Shown here piece after piece: positions 1-10,235 of a DNA stretch of 51,386 nt. This DNA comes from Acidobacteriaceae bacterium. GTDB taxonomy: Bacteria; Acidobacteriota; Terriglobia; Terriglobales; Acidobacteriaceae. The stretch spans positions 1-51,386 of the forward strand of contig PLBE01000096.1 of NCBI GenBank assembly GCA_003134435.1, given 5' to 3'. Positions within the stretch are counted from its first letter, which is position 1. The number at the start of each line of letters is the position of its first letter. The notes below the pieces were generated by a model, which did not search any database, was not told the DNA's origin, and saw only the letters and a list, made by a program, of their open reading frames with translations. The translations under genes were made by a program, and so were the position numbers.

Positions 1-1424
1 TCGCTGTTGTGGCAATCGGTGCAGAGAATCTGGGCGCCCACGCCATTGGCAGGAATGGTGCGGCTCGATGCGCCGCCGGTAATTGTCAGCATCGCGGCCA
101 GCAGGCTGGGCTGTCCGAGTATGCTGTTGCTCACGTGCGTTACCGGATGGCTGGAGGTTGCGCCGATGTCAAACTGCGGAATCAGGTTCAAAGGATCTCC
201 CGCCGAAACCGCCCTGACCGGGAAGTATCCATACATCGTCAGCACCTGTTTGCCGGTGCTGGTGCCGTGGCAGCGCAGGCAGTTCTCAAACTGATTGAGG
301 GCCGGCGTCGGCAGGGGCGTTCCGTTGGTGGCGCTGACGCCTGCAATGTCCTTTTGCGAGACGCGAATCAGCGGAGGAAGCGGGAAAACGCCCACTTGCT
401 CCGATCCATGTGCATTGTGGCAGTCCACGCAGGTGGCATGACGGTTGTTGTTGAGCAGGGTGTTCTCGGCTGCATCGTGCGGATTGGCCGATGTGGGAAA
501 TGGATGTCCCACCTTCGGTGTCGCGTATTCCGGAAACACGTTGGCCCAGGTCACCATCGGCGATACGTTCGCGCCGTTATGGCAGGCGATGCAATCCTGC
601 TCATTCACGCCGCGTAGCAGCCGCGCCGTCGCGCCCGCATTGTGCGGCGCATGGCAGGCGATACAGCCATCCTTGGCCACGGTGGTGTAGCTGCCCACCG
701 CCGCCGTTGGCGCAATCGCATCCGTTGAGATGGCGTGCGCGCTGGTGGCCCAATCGGCGATCGGATTCACCTTGCCGGTGGCGGTTCGTGTGGGATCATG
801 GCAGGCCAAGCAAAGCTGCCCGCCCGTGCCGTCCTTTACCAGAAAATTCTGGCTGATCATGTCCTTGGCCTGCACATGCGGATTGTGGCAAGATGTGCAC
901 TCGACGTTTCCGCCGATCAGTCGCACGGCTCCGGTTGGGTCGGCGGTTCTGTGGCTTTTCGCCAGCGAGGCCGCCAGGTCGATATTGTCCTTCAGCGGCG
1001 CCACCAGGCTGAAGGGATGCGACGTCTGCATGTTGCTGCCGAACACATCCGGGGTGTACATCGATCCGGTCATCGTTACCTGGCCATAGGCGACGGTGTT
1101 GCCCACTCCCACTGTGCCGTCGTGGCAGCTCAGACATTTGTTGCTGTCTGATCCGAGCGTCGGCTGCTTGCCTTTGTTCTTTTCCGTGTCGCTGGTGTAG
1201 AGCGTATAGGTCTGCGTGGTCAGCTTCTGGTTCCACAGGCCGTAGACTGTTCCGGAGTGCGGCGCGTGGCAGTAGGCGCAGGCGTCAGGGCGTGCGCCTG
1301 CGATCGGCGACTTGGTGCCTGGCCCGAATGAGTGCATGCCCAGCACGTCCCCAGTGATCTGCGCGTCCAGCGTGGTCGCGCTCAGCAGCATCGCTAATAC
1401 GGCGGGCAAGATTCCTAACTTCAC
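1..1424 (-). CDS. Multiheme c-type cytochrome, at least 9 hemes (3' end outside window)
   Basis: Reading leftward from a GTG at 1424, the frame stays open to the window edge. It encodes a signal peptide of about 22 residues (VKLGILPAVLAMLLSA...LDAQ) and nine CXXCH heme-binding motifs: CAYCH, CLSCH, CTSCH, CLACH, CIACH, CIACH, CVDCH, CLRCH and CTDCH. Several are followed by PH or NxH, as in doubled-CXXCH cytochromes. The GTG overlaps the TGA of the upstream NHL gene by four bases (GTGA), which suggests translational coupling. The mature N-terminus (DVLGMH, then CAYCHAPHSG, then CLSCHDG) matches the tetraheme cytochrome at 5483-6379. The expected role is electron transfer in the periplasm, at the outer membrane or outside the cell. 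The C-terminus and total heme number lie outside the window. Confidence 0.88.
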   Translation of the reverse strand, partial: MKLGILPAVLAMLLSATTLDAQITGDVLGMHSFGPGTKSPIAGARPDACAYCHAPHSGTVYGLWNQKLTTQTYTLYTSDTEKNKGKQPTLGSDSNKCLSCHDGTVGVGNTVAYGQVTMTGSMYTPDVFGSNMQTSHPFSLVAPLKDNIDLAASLAKSHRTADPTGAVRLIGGNVECTSCHNPHVQAKDMISQNFLVKDGTGGQLCLACHDPTRTATGKVNPIADWATSAHAISTDAIAPTAAVGSYTTVAKDGCIACHAPHNAGATARLLRGVNEQDCIACHNGANVSPMVTWANVFPEYATPKVGHPFPTSANPHDAAENTLLNNNRHATCVDCHNAHGSEQVGVFPLPPLIRVSQKDIAGVSATNGTPLPTPALNQFENCLRCHGTSTGKQVLTMYGYFPVRAVSAGDPLNLIPQFDIGATSSHPVTHVSNSILGQPSLLAAMLTITGGASSRTIPANGVGAQILCTDCHNS

Positions 1425-2476
1425 CTTGTGCCCCCCGTAACCGGTTGTTTTAAACCTGAGTAATGGAAAACCTGCACACGACGGTTGAATGAATCCACCA
1501 CAAAAACCTGATCCTCATGGTCAATGTACAACCCCGCCGGCAACTGAAACTCGCCTGCATGTGTTCCGCTTGAACCGAAGTAATACAGCAGTTGACCCTG
1601 CCGGTTGAAAACCTGCACCATCCCCCACAAACCATCCACCACGTAGAGGTCGCCTTCTGAATCGGTGGCCACGCCCTTCGGTCGGAACATGGCTCCGGGG
1701 CCATCGCCGATTTTGCCGATCGCGTACTGGAAGGCGCCGGAGCGGTCAAATGCCTGCACTCGGAAATTCAGCGCGTCCACCACCATCAGGTTCGGCCCAT
1801 CGAGCCGCAGCTCCGTGGGCGCATTGAATTCGCCGTTGCCATCGCCGGTCTTGCCGATGGTCTTCAGGATGTTGCCCTGCATGTCCAGCACGAAGACTTC
1901 ATCGCGTAGCGTGTCGGTCACATAGATCTGTTGCGCGGCCGAGTCCACGGCGATTCCCGTGGGCCGCTTGAAATAACCTTCGCCGCCCTTCAGGCTGCCG
2001 ATTGCACGAACAAATTTTCCGCTGGGCTCGAAGACAAAGATCACGCCCGCATCGGAATCGGTGACGTAGATGTTGTCCTGGGCATCCACGGCGACGCACT
2101 GCGGCGCCAGCATCGCATTCTTGATTTTGTCCCTTCTCTGGATGAACTTGTACTTGCGTTGCGCGAAGTCGAAGATGTGCACGCCCGCCGCGCCCGGATC
2201 GGTGACGATGACCCGCCCATGCGAATCGGTAACCACGCTGTAGGGGCGCACCAGGAAGCGATAATCCGGCGCGCCGGCAATCACATCCACCAGCTTGTTC
2301 CAGAAGCCTCGGTTCGGCTTCACTTCCTGCTCTGAGCTGAAGCTGCGTTGGTAGGTGAGCTTGCGTCCGCCGTCCAGCGACATCTCCCACTGCTCCGGCG
2401 CCGGCTTGGCTTTTTGAGACGCCCACAGCGGGGCAAGCAGGACCGCTGCGCAGGCCACAATCAGGCCGGCGCGCAT
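1421..2476 (-). CDS. Secreted NHL-repeat beta-propeller protein
   Basis: A protein of about 350 residues with a signal peptide (MRAGLIVACAAVLLAPLWAS) and about six repeats of the NHL type (P.GVAVD..GNIYV.D....V.VF). Examples are APQCVAVDAQDNIYVTDS, RPTGIAVDSAAQQIYVTDT and RPKGVATDSEGDLYVVDG. NHL repeats form beta-propellers that usually bind proteins or ligands. I chose the ATG at 2476 because it begins a clean signal peptide; the frame is open back to a TTG at 2515, which would overlap the upstream gene. The stop overlaps the start of the downstream cytochrome. With a second NHL gene at 6779-8035 in the same locus, a role in assembling or anchoring the cytochromes is plausible, but this is inference. 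Confidence 0.85.
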   Translation of the reverse strand: MRAGLIVACAAVLLAPLWASQKAKPAPEQWEMSLDGGRKLTYQRSFSSEQEVKPNRGFWNKLVDVIAGAPDYRFLVRPYSVVTDSHGRVIVTDPGAAGVHIFDFAQRKYKFIQRRDKIKNAMLAPQCVAVDAQDNIYVTDSDAGVIFVFEPSGKFVRAIGSLKGGEGYFKRPTGIAVDSAAQQIYVTDTLRDEVFVLDMQGNILKTIGKTGDGNGEFNAPTELRLDGPNLMVVDALNFRVQAFDRSGAFQYAIGKIGDGPGAMFRPKGVATDSEGDLYVVDGLWGMVQVFNRQGQLLYYFGSSGTHAGEFQLPAGLYIDHEDQVFVVDSFNRRVQVFHYSGLKQPVTGGTR

Positions 2477-2496
2477 CGGTTGCCGTTTCGCGCGTC

Positions 2497-4320
2497 TCAA
2501 AAGAAATTGAACCAACGTGACACTCCGATGTAGAACGATGATACAACTTCAGGACCTGTTCCGGAGCCGCTGAAACTCTGCCCCAGACGCGAGTATCCGC
2601 TTTGAATCCACAGCTTGCGCACCTGGTATTGAACCAGCGCATTGAACTCGGTGGATGCATTGAGGGACGCAACGCCGCTAAGATTCGTATTGCTGTTCGC
2701 CTTGCCATACGAAGCTGACATGGTAAGCCCCTTCAGGGGTGAACTGGCCAGGGACATTGAGTAGCTGTTCCCGCCGAACAGGCTCACCAGGCTCGAATCC
2801 AGCGTCGGCGGAGGCACGGTGACTGTCACCAGGCCCGATCCGGTAAGGAGCGCCTCTCCACTCGACTTAGAGTAACTTCCGCTGGCCGTAAGGTATTTGC
2901 TGAATCCCGCGCCCGCACTGAAACTCTCGCTGCTGTTAGCCGTTCCTGCCTGTGACGTCAGCGCGGTGCGCCCGCCGCCCCCGCCCACGCTCACGCTGAA
3001 CAGGCCCCAGCGCCGATGGGCATTGCCCGAGTATCGATAGAACGAGTTCAGATAAGTCACCAGCAGGGTTTCCACGTTCTGCGAATAGCCGAATGAGCCG
3101 GCAACCTTCCATCCCTTGATCTCGGTTGTGTAGTTCTCCGTTGTAGAAAAGCTCAACGAATCGTCACTGCTCGGCTCGGTGGAGTTTTCCGCCATATTCA
3201 ACGAGGCGTTGAAATTCCCATTCAGCACCGGCCTTGAATAAGAGACTGTGGCGCCGAGCGCGTCCGATGCATAATTCGTTCCATCGTAGGCCTGCGATCT
3301 GCGTTCAAAATAGGCCGACGTATCCAAATCCTTGCGCGGCGCATAGGTGACCTCGCTCATCAGGTCCAGTGAACTTGTTCCCGCGCTCGCATTCACCGCC
3401 GTGGCCGTACCGCCCGCCGCAATCACCTGCTCAATCAGTTGCCCGGCCAGGTTGTCAGAGTAGCTGGCGCTCGTGGAAAAGGAGACTTGATTGAATGGAT
3501 GCAGGGACGCGGTTGCGCTGTAAAGGTCAAGGGATCCGGTCGAGGTGCTGCCCTGGTAGTTGCTGTCCCAGGTGGAATGTGCGATGGAGCCCGACGCGGC
3601 TCCGTGAAAGGGCAGCCGATGCGAAATATTGAATCCGTAGTTGCTGTTGCCGTTTGTCGACTCCGTATCCGATGCGCCGGAGATCACCTCCGGAATCAGC
3701 GATTTGCTGCCGCCGGAGGCGTAGTACGCCCCCCTACCGAACCCGGCCCATTGATACCACGAGTGCATGCTGAGAGAGTGAAATGAGTTTGTGCCCTGGT
3801 CGTTGGTCCCGTACACCGAATACTGGCTGCTCCCTTTCTGGAATCCCACCGAGAAGCTCGGTGCGTCGGGAAGGTTCTCGCTCCAGTTGATGCCGAAGCC
3901 ATCGCTGTTCCCATGGGTGACGTAATTCGCCAGCCCCGGAACTGCGTAACTCCCTTCGCTGTCGTAGGTTTTGGAATAGCTGATCGAGCCAGGAAAGTGG
4001 CTGCCCCCGAAGATCGACGCGCTCGCCGTCACGCCGCTCGCACTGGAAATCGACTGGTAGTCGGAATTGGCTCGCGACTGATTCAGAAAGAAGCTGGAGT
4101 CGAAGGATAGGAATTTGGGACTATAGAAAGAGCCTGAATAATTGGCGACTCCGCCGATCGTCCAGGTGTGATCGGAGCCTCCCATATTGCTGTAGTCCGC
4201 GGTAAATCCGGGAGCGATGAGCGCGTTCAGGCTTGAGCTGACTTCCCCCGTTTTGATCTGCGCGTCAGCGGGCCACGCCAGCAGCAAGCACACTGCAGGC
4301 ACCACCCACGCAACTCGCAT
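2497..4320 (-). CDS. Predicted outer-membrane beta-barrel protein of a cytochrome locus
   Basis: About 607 residues with a signal peptide (MRVAWVVPAVCLLLAWPADAQ), then a Ser/Gly/Tyr/Asn-rich body of alternating polar and hydrophobic strands, and a C-terminal Phe (RWFNFF). That terminal aromatic residue is typical of outer-membrane barrels inserted by the Bam complex. There is no recognisable enzyme motif and no CXXCH. Size and context fit a porin that could pair with multiheme cytochromes, by analogy with porin-cytochrome conduits, but I cannot assign it to MtrB/PioB or another named family. AAGGGG lies just upstream of the chosen ATG; an in-frame GTG at 4332 is an alternative start. It lies about 70 bases after the parvulin gene and its stop is about 20 bases before the chosen start of the NHL gene, so all are probably one operon. 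Confidence 0.7.
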   Translation of the reverse strand: MRVAWVVPAVCLLLAWPADAQIKTGEVSSSLNALIAPGFTADYSNMGGSDHTWTIGGVANYSGSFYSPKFLSFDSSFFLNQSRANSDYQSISSASGVTASASIFGGSHFPGSISYSKTYDSEGSYAVPGLANYVTHGNSDGFGINWSENLPDAPSFSVGFQKGSSQYSVYGTNDQGTNSFHSLSMHSWYQWAGFGRGAYYASGGSKSLIPEVISGASDTESTNGNSNYGFNISHRLPFHGAASGSIAHSTWDSNYQGSTSTGSLDLYSATASLHPFNQVSFSTSASYSDNLAGQLIEQVIAAGGTATAVNASAGTSSLDLMSEVTYAPRKDLDTSAYFERRSQAYDGTNYASDALGATVSYSRPVLNGNFNASLNMAENSTEPSSDDSLSFSTTENYTTEIKGWKVAGSFGYSQNVETLLVTYLNSFYRYSGNAHRRWGLFSVSVGGGGGRTALTSQAGTANSSESFSAGAGFSKYLTASGSYSKSSGEALLTGSGLVTVTVPPPTLDSSLVSLFGGNSYSMSLASSPLKGLTMSASYGKANSNTNLSGVASLNASTEFNALVQYQVRKLWIQSGYSRLGQSFSGSGTGPEVVSSFYIGVSRWFNFF

Positions 4321-4392
4321 TGACCCCTTCACCGTAACTGCGCCCCAACTTCTCCCAACTCTCCGTGCGGACGGGATTTCCGCTACTGCTGG

Positions 4393-5412
4393 TTAAAGAA
4401 CTTCGATCTTTGCGCTTTCCCGGAGCTTCCGGTCGAGGTCGCCGCGGAGCTTTTCCCGCTTGGTTAGCGGCAGCTCTTTGCTGATTTGCGCCTTTACGTC
4501 TTCAAACTTCGATTCGCCAGCCGTCTGGTGCACGTTCAGCCGCACCACGGTGTATGCCTGGTCCAGTTGAATCAGGCCGCTCACGTCGCCCGGCTTCATG
4601 TTCTTCAGCGCACTCAGCACCTGCGGCGCCAACGTGCTTACGGGCACGGGCTTGTGCTGGCCCATCATCACCCGGTAGTCGTCATCGGAGATCTTCTCCG
4701 CCAGCAGGCCAAACTCCTCGGCCGACTTGGTCACCTTCGCCTGGCGCAGCGCGTCGTCTGCCCGCTTGCGGCCTTCCTTGAGTTGTTCCGCAGTGGCCTT
4801 GTCCGGAGGAAGAATGGAGATGGTCTGAAAGGTATACAACTCCGGATGCTCAAACCGCGCCGGATTCTTGTCGTAGAAATCCTTCAGCTCGGCCGGCGAA
4901 ACCGCGGCCTTGTCCTCGACCTCGGTCTTCAGGAGCGCTTCGATCAGCAATGACCGCTTGATCTTCTCCCGCACCAGCGCAAGCGATCCGTGAAAATCGC
5001 TCTGCACAAACTCATTGAATTCATCGGGCGTGGCAAATGTCTTGCGGAACGCCTGCTCGGAGCGGTCCAGCTTGGCCGGCGGTACAGTCATCTTGCGGCG
5101 CAGCGCCTCCTGGTACACCAGCTCTTCGAAGATCATCATCTTCATGGCGCCGTTGCGAATGTCCGCTTCCATCTCTTTGGGCACTCCGCCGTGCTGGCGG
5201 GCGTAAGGGAAGATTGTGTATTCCTCGCGCACCAGGTCCACATCGGTCAACACAGATCCATTGACGCGTGCCACCGGTCTGGCTGGAGCCTGTGCTGCCT
5301 GTGTCGCAGCGGGCGGCTGCGCCAGGGCCGTCGGTGCATGAGACGCAACCTGGGCGGAAGATGCCGCAACCGAAACAAGAAAAACAAAGCAAATGGGGAA
5401 ATGGGGTTTCAT
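4393..5412 (-). CDS. Periplasmic parvulin-type peptidyl-prolyl cis-trans isomerase (SurA/PpiC-like)
   Basis: About 339 residues with a signal peptide (MKPHFPICFVFLVSVAASSAQ), an Ala/Pro/Gln-rich linker, a helical SurA_N-like region (about residues 45-180, including ARVNGSVLTDVDLVREE) and a parvulin-like region at about 190-290 (ARFEHPELYTFQTISI ... LKNMKPGDVSGLIQLDQAYTVVRL). Such proteins act as chaperones or prolyl isomerases for exported proteins, notably outer-membrane barrels. The ATG at 5412 has AGGA eight bases upstream; the ATG at 5421 has poor spacing. An intrinsic terminator separates it from the upstream tetraheme cytochrome gene. Lying next to a barrel gene and cytochrome genes, it probably serves as their folding factor. 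Confidence 0.85.
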   Translation of the reverse strand: MKPHFPICFVFLVSVAASSAQVASHAPTALAQPPAATQAAQAPARPVARVNGSVLTDVDLVREEYTIFPYARQHGGVPKEMEADIRNGAMKMMIFEELVYQEALRRKMTVPPAKLDRSEQAFRKTFATPDEFNEFVQSDFHGSLALVREKIKRSLLIEALLKTEVEDKAAVSPAELKDFYDKNPARFEHPELYTFQTISILPPDKATAEQLKEGRKRADDALRQAKVTKSAEEFGLLAEKISDDDYRVMMGQHKPVPVSTLAPQVLSALKNMKPGDVSGLIQLDQAYTVVRLNVHQTAGESKFEDVKAQISKELPLTKREKLRGDLDRKLRESAKIEVL

Positions 5413-5431
5413 GAGAACCATCCTGTTTGAG

Positions 5432-5467
5432 AAAAAAAGGGGGAGGGAAGTGTCTCCCCTCCCCCTT
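5432..5467 (-). terminator. Intrinsic terminator behind the tetraheme cytochrome gene
   Basis: Read on the minus strand, an 11-bp perfect stem (AAGGGGGAGGG pairing with CCCTCCCCCTT) with a 9-base loop is followed by a T7 tract. It starts 15 bases after the cytochrome stop and ends about 20 bases before the parvulin start. It should end most transcripts after the cytochrome and allow limited read-through. Confidence 0.85.
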
Positions 5468-5482
5468 CATGCAAATGACCAG

Positions 5483-6379
5483 TTAGAAGGTTGTGGTTGC
5501 TGTTCCGTTGTTGGACTCGTTCGCTTCTCCACCGTGGCACTGGCGGCAGAACTGCGCCGTCTCGTTGCTGAAAGGAGTGGTGCTGGCCGGGTTGTACGGT
5601 GCGTTGATGAAGAACATGGTCGCGTAGTAGCCGGAATTCAGGCCCGTGACTCCGGCGCCGTTGGTCACCTTGACCACATTCATCAAGTGCTGGTTGTGGC
5701 AGGTGGTGCAGAGCACATAAGGCTTGCCGCTGCCATTCACGCCGTAGGGGTTCGACCATGTTCCGGGCGCCAATGCCGGCCAGCCGTAGTTGGCAACGAA
5801 CTGCGCGTACTGTGTGCCTGCGGTTACGCTGAATTTATTATTGGCGAATACCAAGCCGTTGGCGGTGCTGATGGTGGCATTCTGGCCCACCGGGTGATCG
5901 TTGGTGTAGTTGCCGGCCGTGGTGCCGTCGTTGCCGAGCAGGGTTGGAATCTTCTGGCTGCCGTAGGTGGTGTTGGTCAGCAGGCCGATCTGTTGTTCAT
6001 AGGACCAGTTCTGCATCATGTTGGACTGGGTCAGGTTTCCGTCATGGCAGCTCAGGCACAGCAGAATGCCGCCAACTTCCTGGCTTCCACTGGCGATACC
6101 GGTGGGCAGAACTTCAACGTATCTTCCGCCGTCGCCGAAGGCAACCGTCTTGCCATACAGTGGGCTGGCGTCCTGGCCCCACAATGCATAGCTGCCAGCA
6201 TCGGCACCGCCGCCGTGACCGGAACCGAACGAGCCGCTATGCGGAGCATGGCAGCCCGCGCAGCCGCGGCCCTGATTGTTGTGTGCGCCCAGTACGTCAA
6301 CCGTCGACGACCAGTTCTGCGCCATCATAAACCCTGCGAATGCGAAGACGACTAATACGAGTAACATCGCTTTCTTCAT
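5483..6379 (-). CDS. Tetraheme c-type cytochrome, candidate OmcE-like filament cytochrome
   Basis: 298 residues starting at an ATG with GGAGG eleven bases upstream (an in-frame ATG at 6397 lies before that SD). The signal peptide is MKKAMLLVLVVFAFAGFMMAQ. There are four CXXCH motifs: CAGCH at 40-44, CLSCH at 108-112, CTTCH at 224-228 and CRQCH at 278-282. Five other His residues (33, 47, 55, 162, 231) are enough for bis-His ligation of all four hemes. Spacing between hemes is wide, and the chain is rich in Gly, Asn, Thr and aromatic residues with little obvious helix, as in the filament-forming cytochromes OmcE and OmcS. Neighbours (16-heme cytochrome, two NHL propellers, parvulin, barrel) support an extracellular electron-transfer role. 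The filament assignment is inference; a monomeric periplasmic tetraheme protein is the alternative. Confidence 0.85.
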   Translation of the reverse strand: MKKAMLLVLVVFAFAGFMMAQNWSSTVDVLGAHNNQGRGCAGCHAPHSGSFGSGHGGGADAGSYALWGQDASPLYGKTVAFGDGGRYVEVLPTGIASGSQEVGGILLCLSCHDGNLTQSNMMQNWSYEQQIGLLTNTTYGSQKIPTLLGNDGTTAGNYTNDHPVGQNATISTANGLVFANNKFSVTAGTQYAQFVANYGWPALAPGTWSNPYGVNGSGKPYVLCTTCHNQHLMNVVKVTNGAGVTGLNSGYYATMFFINAPYNPASTTPFSNETAQFCRQCHGGEANESNNGTATTTF

Positions 6380-6778
6380 AAAATTTAAGACCTCCATGAT
6401 TTGTACATCGCGTTTCGAATTCTCAGAGGCTTAGGCCTTGGGCTGCGCTGTGTGCCTGGGCACTCTTCGAAGCCGCCTCTCCACCGTGCTAATGCAACTG
6501 GTTGTCCGAAAGGAGCCGAGGCTGCGCATTAAAAGAAGTATGGTGTAAGCTGATGAATCTAAAGAGTAATTATGCTGAGCTTCCCGAAAATCCAAATTGG
6601 GGCTGAGTGCCGAACTGAGGGAAATGATCCAGTTAAAAAGGTGGAGTGGTGAAAATCCGCACTTCCGAGTGTTACCAAGAGTTACATATCACAAGTGTTG
6701 CAAAATGCAGCAGTTGTGGCGGCAGGGGCACAACGACGTTAGTCGCGATGGCGGGGCAGAGCCCCGCCGCCGAATGGA
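6380..6778. promoter_or_regulatory. Long intergenic region and structured 5' leader of the tetraheme cytochrome
   Basis: About 400 bases without a supportable gene. Close to the cytochrome start, positions 6425-6480 can fold on the minus strand: AGAGGC at 6475-6480 pairs with GCCTCT at 6425-6430, enclosing the hairpin GTGCC-CA-GGCAC (6452-6463). I looked for c-di-GMP (GEMM), cobalamin and TPP riboswitch core motifs and saw none. I could not fix a convincing -35/-10 pair. Confidence 0.4.
6750..6768. terminator. GC-rich hairpin after the NHL gene
   Basis: A perfect 8-bp inverted repeat, GGCGGGGC-AGA-GCCCCGCC, starts ten bases beyond the stop of the NHL gene at 6779. It has no T tract, so it may be a 3'-end-stabilising or Rho-assisted structure, or an intergenic hairpin repeat, rather than a classical terminator. 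Confidence 0.5.
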
Positions 6779-8035
6779 CTAGTGGCTCGGGGGAACGGAA
6801 GCGGAAGGAGCGGGGGGCGTGATCGGCGTCACTTCTTTTTGTGTTCCGGCTGATCTCTTTTCGCGCTGCGCTTCCTTTTCTTTTTTCAACTGTTCGGCCT
6901 CGGCATCGGTGACATAGCGGAACTGCTGGACGCGCCCGGGGTAAATCTCGGAAGTGAAGATGCGATTGTTGTTGTCGGCGACGATGTTTACGATTCCCTG
7001 GAACTGCCCGGGGAGCAGGCCGTGACCGCCAAAGGAGATGAGTAGCTGGGTCTCCTGATTGAACACCTGCACGCGATCCTGCACGCCATCGGCAACCCAG
7101 ATGTGATTGTCGCTGTCAATTGCCACGCCTTTGGGGCGGGCGAAGTAGCCGGGGCCGTCGCCATTTTTGCCGAAGGTTTTAATGAATTTGCCGTCGGCGT
7201 CGAAGATTTCGATGCGATCGTTGAGGGTGTCGCAGACGTAAAGATTGCCGTCGGAATCAACCGCCAGCCCAGTCGGTTTGGCGAAATCGCCGGGAGTGGT
7301 GAGTTCGTGCTTGTGCCCGGTGGTGCCCATCGTGCGTTTCAGTTTCAGGGAGTCGGCGTCATAGACAAGGACCTGGTCGAGGTTGATGTCGGAAACATAG
7401 AGTTGGCGGTTCTCGCGATCGATGGCCAGGTTGGCTGGCATAACCAATCCATCGGTGATGACATCGACCGGCTTGTGGGTGGAATCGAAAACCAGAATAT
7501 GGCGCAGGCCGGGATCGGAAACGAAGAGACGGTCGCCGTCGTCCATCGCCAATCCGATAATGCGAACAAAGTGGCCGTGGGTCTTGTTCTTGATCAGCTC
7601 CACGTCGCGGGTCTCAGTGTTGAAGATGAAGATTGCGCCCACCTTCTGGTCGGCCACATAGAGATTGTTCTTGGAGTCGACGGCCATGCCATACGGTTCG
7701 CCGAGTTGGAACAGAACCTTGGTGCTCTCGCTCTGGGGCTGCGTGCCGGCAAGGCGGTCCATCCACTTGGCTTTCTTGGTGCTGTTTTCAGCCTCGACCT
7801 GCGATATTTTCTCGGCCGAATAGAACGCGGTGTAGCGGATGCGCGCAATCGCGGGCGGATTGGGCCAGACGATGTTGGAGTAGTCGATGACGGGAATCTT
7901 CTTGGGCTCGGCGTCCGCTTTCTTCTTCTTGTCGGCGAATCCGGAGATGGGCGCAAGCAACGCCATGGCGAGCAGCAGACACCACACGAGCCAGCCCTTG
8001 GGATTCGGAATCAAGCTTGCCTTGACTTCAGACAT
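6779..8035 (-). CDS. Secreted NHL-repeat six-bladed beta-propeller protein
   Basis: 418 residues. The N-terminus carries a hydrophobic export segment at about residues 15-34 (GWLVWCLLLAMALLAPISGF) followed by a Lys-rich stretch (DKKKKADAEPKK). The rest is NHL repeats, for example EPYGMAVDSKNNLYVADQ, KPTGLAVDSDGNLYVCDT and RPKGVAIDSDNHIWVADG. The C-terminal 40 residues are a charged Lys/Glu tail ending in a Pro-rich segment. It follows the 16-heme cytochrome gene by about 20 bases, so the two are almost certainly cotranscribed. It is related in kind to the NHL protein at 1421-2476 but longer at both ends. Its function is not known; a scaffold or partner for the cytochromes is the contextual guess. 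Confidence 0.87.
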   Translation of the reverse strand: MSEVKASLIPNPKGWLVWCLLLAMALLAPISGFADKKKKADAEPKKIPVIDYSNIVWPNPPAIARIRYTAFYSAEKISQVEAENSTKKAKWMDRLAGTQPQSESTKVLFQLGEPYGMAVDSKNNLYVADQKVGAIFIFNTETRDVELIKNKTHGHFVRIIGLAMDDGDRLFVSDPGLRHILVFDSTHKPVDVITDGLVMPANLAIDRENRQLYVSDINLDQVLVYDADSLKLKRTMGTTGHKHELTTPGDFAKPTGLAVDSDGNLYVCDTLNDRIEIFDADGKFIKTFGKNGDGPGYFARPKGVAIDSDNHIWVADGVQDRVQVFNQETQLLISFGGHGLLPGQFQGIVNIVADNNNRIFTSEIYPGRVQQFRYVTDAEAEQLKKEKEAQREKRSAGTQKEVTPITPPAPSASVPPSH

Positions 8036-8056
8036 ATTTCAATCTCCTCATGCAAA

Positions 8057-9562
8057 CTACCGTTTCGTCAGATCCTTGTGACAAGTTATACAGAAAGCCA
8101 TGTTGTTGGCCTGGTCCTTCACCAGCAGGTCGGGCTGCGCCGACGCATGCGGCTGGTGGCATGACATGCAGTTGATTTTTGCGTACGTCTTGGTGACATC
8201 GGTCGGATCGGGCACGTCGACCACCGGGTGGCCGTCGACCGGATGCCCGCGTCCATAGCGCAGCGGCAGCACGACGGTCTTGTTCTTCGTGAAGTAATCC
8301 TCGGGGAGTTTCACTTTCCCATCGAAGATCGAGATCAGGTGCTCGGCTTCGAGCTTCTTCGGCGCGGCGGAGTCGGGGCCGTGGCACTCGAGGCACAGCG
8401 CATCGGTTTTCGTGGTGCGTAGCAGGTGTTCGTTGTCGCCGCCGTGCGGCTCATGGCAGATCGCACACGACTGTCCAAAAGCCGGTTGATGAAGATGCGC
8501 TTTCTTGAACTGTTCGGCCTGGTCGGCATGGCAGGCGAGACAGGCGCTGACTGGATCGGGCTGCAGGAAGCCGGGAGTCTTGCCGGCATGGGGATTGTGG
8601 CAGGCGATGCATTCTCCCTGGGCTCCGGGATGCGCTACTTTGGCCTTGTCGATGTGCTCCACCTGATCGCTGTGGCAGGTGGCGCAGAGCGCTCGCGAGT
8701 CGGTGTTGGTCAGGACGACTTTGCCGTCCTTGGCGGGCGCGTGACAGATTTCGCAGGTCTTTTCGGCAAAGGGAGGATGCGTAAACTTAGCCATCAGCTT
8801 CGGCTGCGCGGACTGATGCGGGTCATGACATTGGGTGCAGGTGGCGGTGGCAAACGGCTGTCCCTGGTGAGCCTTGATGAGCGCGGCATCTTTGACGTCG
8901 TGGCAGTCGATGCAGAGAGCGGGGACGGCCTTGTTCAGATGATTGTCGAATTCCTGCTTGCCTTTTTCGCCGACTTTGTGAGTCGTGTGGCAAGCGTCGC
9001 ATCCCATGTCGAGCGCGGCGTGGCGGCTGCCTTTGGCGGGAACATTCGTTCCCTGACTGTGGCAATCGAGGCAGAGGTTCTTGCCTTTTTCTCCGGAAGT
9101 GGCCTTCAGCAACTGATTCTTATTGTCGGAAGTATGCGGATCGTGACACTTAAGGCAGTCGCGCACGGCGGGCGGATGCACAGTGCCCTTCAGCGTGGCC
9201 GCGTCCTTGTCCGCATGGCAGGTGATGCAAAGTGCCTGTGGCGTCGAAGTGATGAGCTTGACACGGGTGATGTCTTTGTTAACACGCACTTCATGGCAGG
9301 TCAGGCAGCCCATCGCGATGGCGGAATGGACGGCTTTGCCCTTCGACTTGTCCTCATGGCATTCGAGGCACTTGGCGGCGTCAACGTTCTTATCTAGAGG
9401 AACGGGATGAACCGCCCCCAAAAGAGGCGCGCTGTACAGCAGCGCCAGACTCAGAGTGAGAACGACTTTCGCCGCTGATCTTCGCTTCGCTGAACCTGGA
9501 TGCACGGCTATTTGCGAATCCAGATTTCCAACCTGGCTCACGAATTGGGGGAGGGTGCTCAC
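8057..9562 (-). CDS. Sixteen-heme c-type cytochrome (doubled CXXCH type)
   Basis: About 501 residues with sixteen CXXCH motifs, roughly one per 30 residues, many in doubled-CXXCH form with following PH (CLKCHDPH, CTQCHDPH, CIACHNPH, CAICHEPH, CMSCHQPH). The export signal is the hydrophobic run VVLTLSLALLYSAPLLGA after a long basic N-region (SAKRRSAAK). I chose the GTG at 9562 because GGAG lies six bases upstream; the frame is open to a TTG at 9574. Dense linear heme packing is typical of periplasmic or outer-membrane electron conduits. It is the first gene of the leftward locus. There is no lipobox and no catalytic signature (for example of nitrite reductase or octaheme families), so an electron-carrier role is most likely. 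Confidence 0.9.
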   Translation of the reverse strand: MSTLPQFVSQVGNLDSQIAVHPGSAKRRSAAKVVLTLSLALLYSAPLLGAVHPVPLDKNVDAAKCLECHEDKSKGKAVHSAIAMGCLTCHEVRVNKDITRVKLITSTPQALCITCHADKDAATLKGTVHPPAVRDCLKCHDPHTSDNKNQLLKATSGEKGKNLCLDCHSQGTNVPAKGSRHAALDMGCDACHTTHKVGEKGKQEFDNHLNKAVPALCIDCHDVKDAALIKAHQGQPFATATCTQCHDPHQSAQPKLMAKFTHPPFAEKTCEICHAPAKDGKVVLTNTDSRALCATCHSDQVEHIDKAKVAHPGAQGECIACHNPHAGKTPGFLQPDPVSACLACHADQAEQFKKAHLHQPAFGQSCAICHEPHGGDNEHLLRTTKTDALCLECHGPDSAAPKKLEAEHLISIFDGKVKLPEDYFTKNKTVVLPLRYGRGHPVDGHPVVDVPDPTDVTKTYAKINCMSCHQPHASAQPDLLVKDQANNMAFCITCHKDLTKR

Positions 9563-10235
9563 GTGGTTCTCCAACGAGTGGTATGCACGATGATTGCCGC
9601 ATCGCTGAGGCGCGTTGACATTTCTGACGATTGCCTAACTACTTGTATCATAATGACTCGGAAGCTTGGACTTGTCGTTCGCGAAAACCAAACTGACGGC
9701 CAGAATCGTCGCCGATGGGCTTTCTCCCACATTGCGATTCGCCGAATTGCGCGAGATGCCACAATTTGAAAACAAGGCGTGCGCACTCGCCATCGAACTC
9801 TGACCTCGCGAAGCACCTACCGCCACTGGATGTGAAACTTGGCTGCATCAAACCCCATCCGCAATGCGATTATTCGAATGCAAGCGCGGCGAACCGAGTG
9901 TAGCCTGAATCACCGCCATTTGTGATGTCGATCACAACAGGGTCGATCCCAGCGGAGTGAAGGGTTGTCGCCGACTTCGATTCCGTGTGGTTCGAGTTGT
10001 TGGGAGATGCAGTCTGGGTGGCGCCGTGCTTCAGCGCTTGCGGAGAAAGTCATGAATGCGGGCGTCGAAGTTCACTGCAGATCACAAGTTGACCCGTTAA
10101 ACTATGCCGGCACCTCCGCCAAGGACGACCCTGCGCACGTGCGGCGCCCTCATCTTTCACACCATTCATTTACTATTCCTTTACGCATTCCTTGCGTATG
10201 CTTGTTAACTTTCAGCCTGAGTCTTGCATTCGATA
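9563..10235. promoter_or_regulatory. Divergent intergenic region between the cytochrome locus and the ABC exporter
   Basis: About 670 bases between divergent genes. The small open frames here look like chance frames. A TATGAT hexamer on the minus strand (about 9647-9652) could be a -10 for the cytochrome operon, without a good -35. The clearest element is the CRP/FNR-like palindrome at 9920-9937. Confidence 0.4.
9920..9937. promoter_or_regulatory. CRP/FNR-family-like binding palindrome
   Basis: TTGTGATGTCGATCACAA is a six-base perfect inverted repeat that fits the classical CRP spacing exactly (TGTGA-N6-TCACA). It lies about 360 bases upstream of the 16-heme cytochrome start and about 300 upstream of the ABC ATPase start. 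No regulator of this family is encoded in the window. Confidence 0.5.

Follow-up and report, generated by a model that had tools for sequence, protein, structure and literature searches.

A conserved acidobacterial gene cluster with a candidate OmcE-type cytochrome filament and MtrAB-like electron conduit

The gene cluster

We analysed a stretch of 51,386 nucleotides (the window) of the Acidobacteriaceae contig PLBE01000096.1, which runs from base 1 of this contig, C141 in an assembly of 261 contigs and 5.75 Mb. At its start the initial annotation had placed a run of seven minus-strand genes with three multiheme cytochromes of 16, four and at least nine hemes, and our coordinates and CXXCH counts agree: seven neighbouring minus-strand genes between positions 3 and 9574, here called g1 to g7, encode cytochromes, propellers, a parvulin-like protein and a barrel.

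The first gene, g1 (8057-9574, with a possible alternative start at 9562), encodes a secreted cytochrome with 16 CXXCH motifs that appears MtrA/DmsE-like. It is followed by g2 (6779-8035), for a secreted NHL β-propeller (NHL domain, E 2.8e-23), and by g3 (5483-6397), for a tetraheme OmcE-family cytochrome with four CXXCH motifs, the candidate filament subunit. Immediately 3' of g3, on the same strand, lies a terminator-like hairpin (5436-5468) with a 15-pair stem and a T-rich tail. Next come g4 (4393-5421), for a secreted SurA/parvulin-like PPIC protein and putative chaperone (PF13145, E 1.7e-17); g5 (2497-4332), for a 611-residue predicted outer-membrane β-barrel of 28 strands, MtrB-like in appearance; g6 (1421-2515), for a second secreted NHL propeller (NHL domain, E 3.5e-18); and g7 (3-1424), which joins an OmcE-type tetraheme module to further hemes and is incomplete, with nine CXXCH motifs, because the window starts at the first base of the contig. 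Domain matches and the model of the g5 barrel bear out the two propellers, the parvulin and the barrel candidate of about 600 residues named at the outset, and the overlaps or short gaps between the genes were also found (overlaps of 4 and 19 nt; gaps of 21, 60, 61 and 381 nt). The initial annotation had overlooked the OmcE-type module in g7, the MtrAB-like look of g1 and g5, and the mosaic nature of g3.

When the flanking reading frames were grouped, most of what emerged were shadows of g1 to g7, in antisense or out of frame, and we claim no extra partner gene. A scan against Rfam was empty, and promoter-like matches were no more frequent than chance predicts (3 against 3.0).

Conservation of the gene set

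Named species genomes were scanned with g3, which yielded 41 loci, all in acidobacterial or Terriglobia assemblies as judged by title. Among these loci g4 was present in 41, g5 in 39, g6 in 36, g7 in 35, g2 in 34 and g1 in 33, and the complete seven-gene set was found in 29. Both the g3-g4 association (41/41) and the seven-gene set (29/41) exceed chance. The tetraheme gene is kept together with the barrel and NHL genes; a lack of such conservation, on which the initial annotation had staked its proposal, was looked for and did not occur. Two gene orders were observed, g1-g2-g3-g4-g5-g6-g7 and g3-g4-g5-g6-g7-g1-g2. Absent genes mostly coincide with contig ends, and the PPIC gene is broken over two frames in L009, L038 and L048. 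The titles of the assemblies bearing g3 include bog, palsa and fen samples, habitats in which iron and humic reduction are thought to be important.

A survey of distant loci covered 31 that already contained OmcE-like matches. The distant families share an NHL gene, a tetraheme gene, a frame of ~550-730 residues, another NHL gene and a gene for an 11-heme protein; variants occur, and the order differs or a recognised member is missing in L077, L079, L081, the near-identical L082/L083, L084, L143, L153, L155, L157 and L159, the last of which has no free tetraheme OmcE gene. The PPIC gene was detected in a minority of these loci.

Extra copies of the tetraheme gene also occur. In L023, L025, L028, L029, L032 and L044 an additional g3-family gene lies in opposite orientation after g7, and it precedes g1 wherever g1 is present; a second g3-family copy was also observed in L010 and L027. 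Ten distant loci (L140-L143, L146, L147, L150, L151, L153 and L080) carry a 5-heme open frame of 190-494 residues after the first NHL gene, and in these ten the PPIC gene was not detected. This 5-heme frame is possibly the heme-bearing isomerase mentioned in the available text of PMC12246660.

g3 as a diverged member of the OmcE family

The g3 protein shows the wide heme spacing first noted for it, with 76 residues per heme. The many aromatic residues also ascribed to it proved a weak feature, F, W and Y making up 10.5% of g3 as against 11.0% of the g6 propeller and 12.6% of the barrel protein. Five histidines outside the CXXCH motifs were present as claimed (39, 53, 61, 168 and 237), but just four are conserved: His39, 53, 168 and 237 are invariant in 50/50 family sequences, while His61 is found in 11/50. 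The family therefore has exactly four invariant distal histidines for its four CXXCH motifs, and since His61 is not conserved we dropped the fifth histidine as a hint of inter-subunit ligation.

When g3 alone was searched against the Protein Data Bank (PDB), just a weak match to 9yuq was obtained (E 0.065). The profile of the g3 family reached 9yuq at E 3.6e-5. An alignment of g3 with 9yuq by hhalign gave a probability of 98, against 45 in a control alignment of g3 with g1, itself from a multiheme family. The 9yuq protein is homologous to OmcE, the filament cytochrome of Geobacter sulfurreducens (7tfs; E 7e-33), and the 16 chains of its entry hint at a polymer. Of 396 acidobacterial genomes searched, 19 gave a match. 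The weaker matches included eleven bridging homologs (L060-L070), each with four hemes and a match to OmcE or 9yuq (best ~3e-34), ten of them with an NHL gene nearby; L060 bridges both sides, matching OmcE at 2.6e-13 and g3 at 1.1e-11. The matches L059, L071 and L073 are fragments or not tetraheme.

From nine of the bridging homologs, OmcE and 9yuq, with g3 excluded, an OmcE-family profile (A5) was built, which recovers the g3 orthologs at E 1e-20 to 1e-11. The window g3 scored 51 bits over the whole protein and 45.5 bits in its best domain. The 66 bits that A5 gave on g1 fall into pieces of at most 25 bits each, mostly 30-40 residues around heme motifs, and so show the level of motif noise; in the PDB, A5 reached OmcS and 6r2q_A at only ~1e-3. 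By a hand count, 55 of the 396 genomes contain a strong OmcE-type match (best E <=1e-20), whether free-standing or as the module within g7, and nine of the 55 had contributed rows to the profile; at E<=0.001 there were A5 matches in 181/396, mostly weak heme-motif matches, and just the 55 were counted.

An alignment of 30 proteins, chosen sequences whose distant members had been picked by their match to the OmcE profile, shows the four CXXCH motifs, the histidine of the HP motif and the histidine after heme 3 to be invariant, with the histidine after heme 1 present in 29/30. The first distal histidine aligned in 25/30 and is displaced toward heme 1 in five g3-type rows. Alignment A1 consisted of the window copy and 46 g3-family proteins out of 49, L038, L048 and one L044 copy being omitted; A2, A3 and A4 held 35/37, 32/35 and 26/31 sequences, each with that of the window.

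Taken at the level of sequence, g3 is a diverged OmcE-family cytochrome, linked to OmcE through 9yuq and acidobacterial intermediates, with four hemes and the same distal-histidine pattern. The comparison with OmcE and OmcS made initially stands for OmcE, whereas with four hemes g3 does not fall within the filament types of OmcS (six hemes) or OmcZ (eight hemes). It also differs from OmcE in being about 70 residues longer (304 vs 232), in having its first distal histidine just 7 residues before heme 1, and in belonging to a seven-gene set; the available part of PMC1829397 places G. sulfurreducens omcE among the predicted transcription units that consist of one gene. Conserved heme ligands together with free loops are described for OmcE and OmcS in the text available of PMC9473688 and PMC12977616, and the first of these papers also describes, for both filaments, a heme ligated by a histidine of the neighbouring subunit. 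Membership in this family suggests that g3 may form a filament.

Mosaic structure of the window copy of g3

The g3 of the window does not resemble any one clade along its whole length. Over residues 28-225 the identity is 69-86% with clade A (L009-L021) and 42-55% with the other sequences; over residues 226-304 it is 51-59% with clade A and, with the others, mostly 63-78% (range 40-78%). The switch from clade A to clade B type occurs near position 5700, at the third heme motif, and the neighbouring genes take the same sides, g1 and g2 following clade A and g4 to g7 following clade B, g4 less sharply.

Recombination and an assembly chimera are both possible origins. In the second case two related clusters of one genome or sample would have been joined in assembly, the window protein would not be real and the family would be; we regard this as having nearly, if not quite, an even chance. 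It agrees with the pattern of the flanks, where g1, g2 and g3 up to about residue 233 are clade A-like and the g3 C-terminus with g4 to g7 is clade B/C-like, and with the fact that, of the 49 other g3-family proteins, none comes near the window copy over both segments. Exact A/B matches of 26-30 nt were found at the junction, all of them with L025, and the host genome has a further g5-g6-g7 of clade A type on contig C261 (1-4416; L093), with g5 cut off by the contig start and g7 complete with 11 hemes. However, no exact match of at least 20 nt between window positions 1-10000 and C261 1-5000 was found when a simple graph fork with C261 was checked as the source of the mosaic or of the contig break within g7, and the median longest exact match between A- and B-type genes is just 18 nt. 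The assembly has one g3 and one close g4, GC content is similar on either side of the junction (0.594 and 0.576), and a true recombination within a conserved motif would appear identical. The family-level conclusions are independent of the window copy.

A hairpin behind g3

Using one script and the same criteria throughout (a stem of at least 7 pairs and at least 5 T, within 80 nt), we found a hairpin after 29/49 g3-family genes, GA-rich/CT-rich and terminator-like. After the other genes it was found in 0/37 cases for g4, 0/28 for g2, 2/31 for g1, 0/35 for g6 and 0/35 for g5. Terminator-like matches overall were near chance (14 vs 11.0), with the one behind g3 standing out. The contrast between g3 and its neighbours is large and would fit a structural subunit made in excess of the anchor and export genes.

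The g1 and g5 pair

In the PDB, the sole match of g1 at E<=0.001 was 6r2q_A of the Mtr complex (1.7e-15 by phmmer, 5.3e-27 with the family profile). We take chain A of 6r2q to be MtrA and chain B to be MtrB, although the PDB table labels chain A 'Cystathionine beta-synthase'. All 31 g1 relatives have 16 hemes, and g1 scores 174.5 bits against the DmsE family, under the cut-off of 192.2; by these matches g1 is MtrA-like. For g5, an AlphaFold2 model (pLDDT 76.7, pTM 0.61) contains 28 long strands, counted from the listed elements, and a Foldseek search of the PDB placed 6r2q_B first (E 2.1e-10, TM 0.51). Outer-membrane barrels often have a C-terminal phenylalanine, which is present in 11 of the 19 frames listed as candidate counterparts. 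The g5 model may represent an MtrB-like large barrel, other barrels being close behind in the ranking. Relative to MtrAB(C), g1 has 16 hemes rather than 10, the barrel has 28 predicted strands, and no MtrC-like gene was found within the seven-gene set, where g7 would take its place.

The barrel could instead be an export channel for the filament subunit, with g1 a separate periplasmic carrier and no MtrAB-type plug. The osc operon of Geobacter, reportedly described by Shen et al. in 2025, is said to include a prolyl isomerase, channel proteins and a propeller, and the PPIC, NHL and barrel genes beside g3 are of these kinds. Export has been proposed as the role of OscEFG. In the available text of PMC13194489 the operon is summarised as a filament cytochrome accompanied by proteins for folding, secretion and morphology, a likeness to our locus that holds by gene kinds only; the subunit here is tetraheme and OmcE-type, in contrast to the hexaheme OmcS of osc. 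The barrel adjoins the chaperone and propellers, and in distant loci a g1-like gene, with 7 to 21 hemes, sometimes sits elsewhere in the cluster. Against this, MtrB came first among PDB chains in the fold search of g5 and the only significant PDB match of g1 was 6r2q_A, and we consider a pure export channel rather unlikely. The accessory genes had been seen initially as a secretion and anchoring set; this may be so for some of them, but g1 and g5 resemble an MtrAB conduit rather than only such a set.

A fused OmcE-type module in g7

The newest point of this account is that g7 carries an OmcE-type module fused to further hemes. Complete g7 relatives have 627-659 residues with the starts chosen, and 34/35 have 11 hemes. 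The best PDB match of the g7 family profile was OmcE 7tfs (E 9.6e-21, residues 9-212), with 9yuq at 5.7e-16; profile A5 covers the first 210 residues with 114.8 bits, and the four distal histidines of the module are invariant in 33 sequences. Among 14 hand-picked genomes of family f1, all 7 that carry g3 or an OmcE-like gene gave a strong g7 match, and the remaining 7 gave a marginal one or none.

At four loci (L078, L085, L156 and L157) the tetraheme module and the 7-heme part are two adjacent genes. In all four the 4-heme frame stops 1-3 residues past its final heme, the 7-heme frame shows a Met with a signal-like stretch behind it, and each half thus has a signal-like start of its own. These frame ends and starts led us to set aside frame-shifted sequence errors, and the two halves seem to be secreted separately. 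For L156 and L157 this calls for a different start codon in the 4-heme frame, as no Met begins the signal-like stretch there. A FastTree phylogeny of 30 proteins groups the fused modules with the free ones from L078 and L085 (clade support 0.91), and the free 4-heme proteins of this clade adjoin 7-heme genes.

With a C-terminal extension, a filament module can prolong the chain of hemes in just one direction, and g7 is therefore expected at one end of a filament, as a cap. This would be the membrane end, because g7 stands beside the barrel and the second propeller in a set lacking an MtrC-like gene. We propose tentatively that, across Acidobacteriota, g7 serves as a nanowire socket, in which a filament-subunit module and a seven-heme head would electrically join an OmcE-type filament to an MtrAB-like conduit of the same gene set.

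Proposed mechanism

Taken together, the seven genes probably supply an extracellular cytochrome filament of OmcE type, an outer-membrane electron conduit and assembly factors, and the first interpretation of the locus as a cytochrome-filament set is in part supported by its sequence. Electrons of the periplasm would enter the MtrA-like 16-heme g1, housed in the 28-strand MtrB-like barrel g5, and pass to g7, which would have its seven-heme part at the outer face and would dock the first filament subunit by its tetraheme module of OmcE type. They would then travel along a g3 polymer to an external acceptor, for example Fe(III) or humic matter. In this scheme g4 may fold or escort subunits, the two NHL propellers may hold or shape the assembly, and the hairpin 3' of g3 would let the subunit be produced in excess.

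Several observations weigh against this reading. The window g3 is mosaic, g3 alone gave no match to OmcE 7tfs at E<=10, and the PDB match of the g3-family profile to 9yuq, E 3.6e-5 overall, has a best-domain i-value of 0.014 with high bias, an unrelated cytochrome coming next at 0.0087. The AlphaFold2 model of g3, made from 47 sequences, has a pLDDT of 46, too low for a fold search. The superposition of g5 on 6r2q_B at TM 0.51 has an rmsd of 12.8, and a SlpA-type barrel ranks second at 2.9e-10, with BtuB-type barrels next; with these so close behind, the MtrB match is support and not proof. No Pfam family for a barrel was found in g5, in the barrel family (36 members) or in 8 distant counterparts. 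The hairpin was not detected after 20/49 g3-family genes, the stretches used as control are largely coding and so not fully matched, and the relatives are not independent. Finally, L015 has no g1 and no g2 despite 10 kb of upstream and 3.6 kb of downstream sequence.

A plain MtrCAB-like conduit would account for the likeness of g1 and g5 to MtrA and MtrB. These two would then cross the outer membrane, and g3 and g7 would be monomers at the cell surface, reducing acceptors themselves and forming no filament. Polymerisation of g3 is itself a deduction, on which the AlphaFold2 model gives no assembly information, and the available text of PMC13264449 reports porin-cytochrome clusters centred on an undecaheme protein from cave metagenomes. 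Yet g3 and the g7 module both belong to the OmcE family, exactly four invariant distal histidines serve four hemes, PPIC and propeller genes accompany g3, and the hairpin suggests an excess of g3; we therefore judge a conduit of this kind unlikely.

The direction of the filament and conduit system assumed above is outward. Outer-membrane electron conduits can operate in both directions, and nothing was found in the locus that fixes one, so that the machinery might run inward, taking up electrons from Fe(II), humics or partner cells; no positive evidence for uptake was found, and it seems distinctly improbable.

Relation to other systems

How electrons pass between filaments and the cell interior is not well understood even in Geobacter, according to the available text of PMC10553843. 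With a pair resembling MtrAB, a subunit of OmcE type and a module fusion next to one another, the locus offers a concrete candidate for this missing link, and the set is small enough for the connection of filament and conduit to be tested on it.

Similar combinations are known. The OetABI clusters of sulfate-reducing partners of ANME place a barrel and periplasmic and outer cytochromes beside filament-type cytochromes (PMC10553843, available text), and a SEEP-SRB operon contains two large cytochromes, a PPIase and a β-propeller (PMC12246660, available text). These systems are OmcX/OmcS-type, whereas the present one is OmcE-type; OmcE is absent from the main text of PMC10553843, and the available text of the two papers does not mention an OmcE-module fusion. 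The cave clusters of PMC13264449, compared by description only, have an 11-heme cytochrome next to a porin, and some of the metagenome-assembled genomes concerned are Acidobacteriota; the available text states that OmcS/OmcE nanowires were not investigated there.

Large multiheme genes were also seen apart from the seven-gene set. At L155 a 1002-residue frame with 38 CXXCH motifs lies close to an OmcE-like gene, and in the host genome of the window a dense CXXCH-coding run on the minus strand of contig C4 (~83.9-89.0 kb) apparently encodes large multiheme cytochromes outside the cluster.

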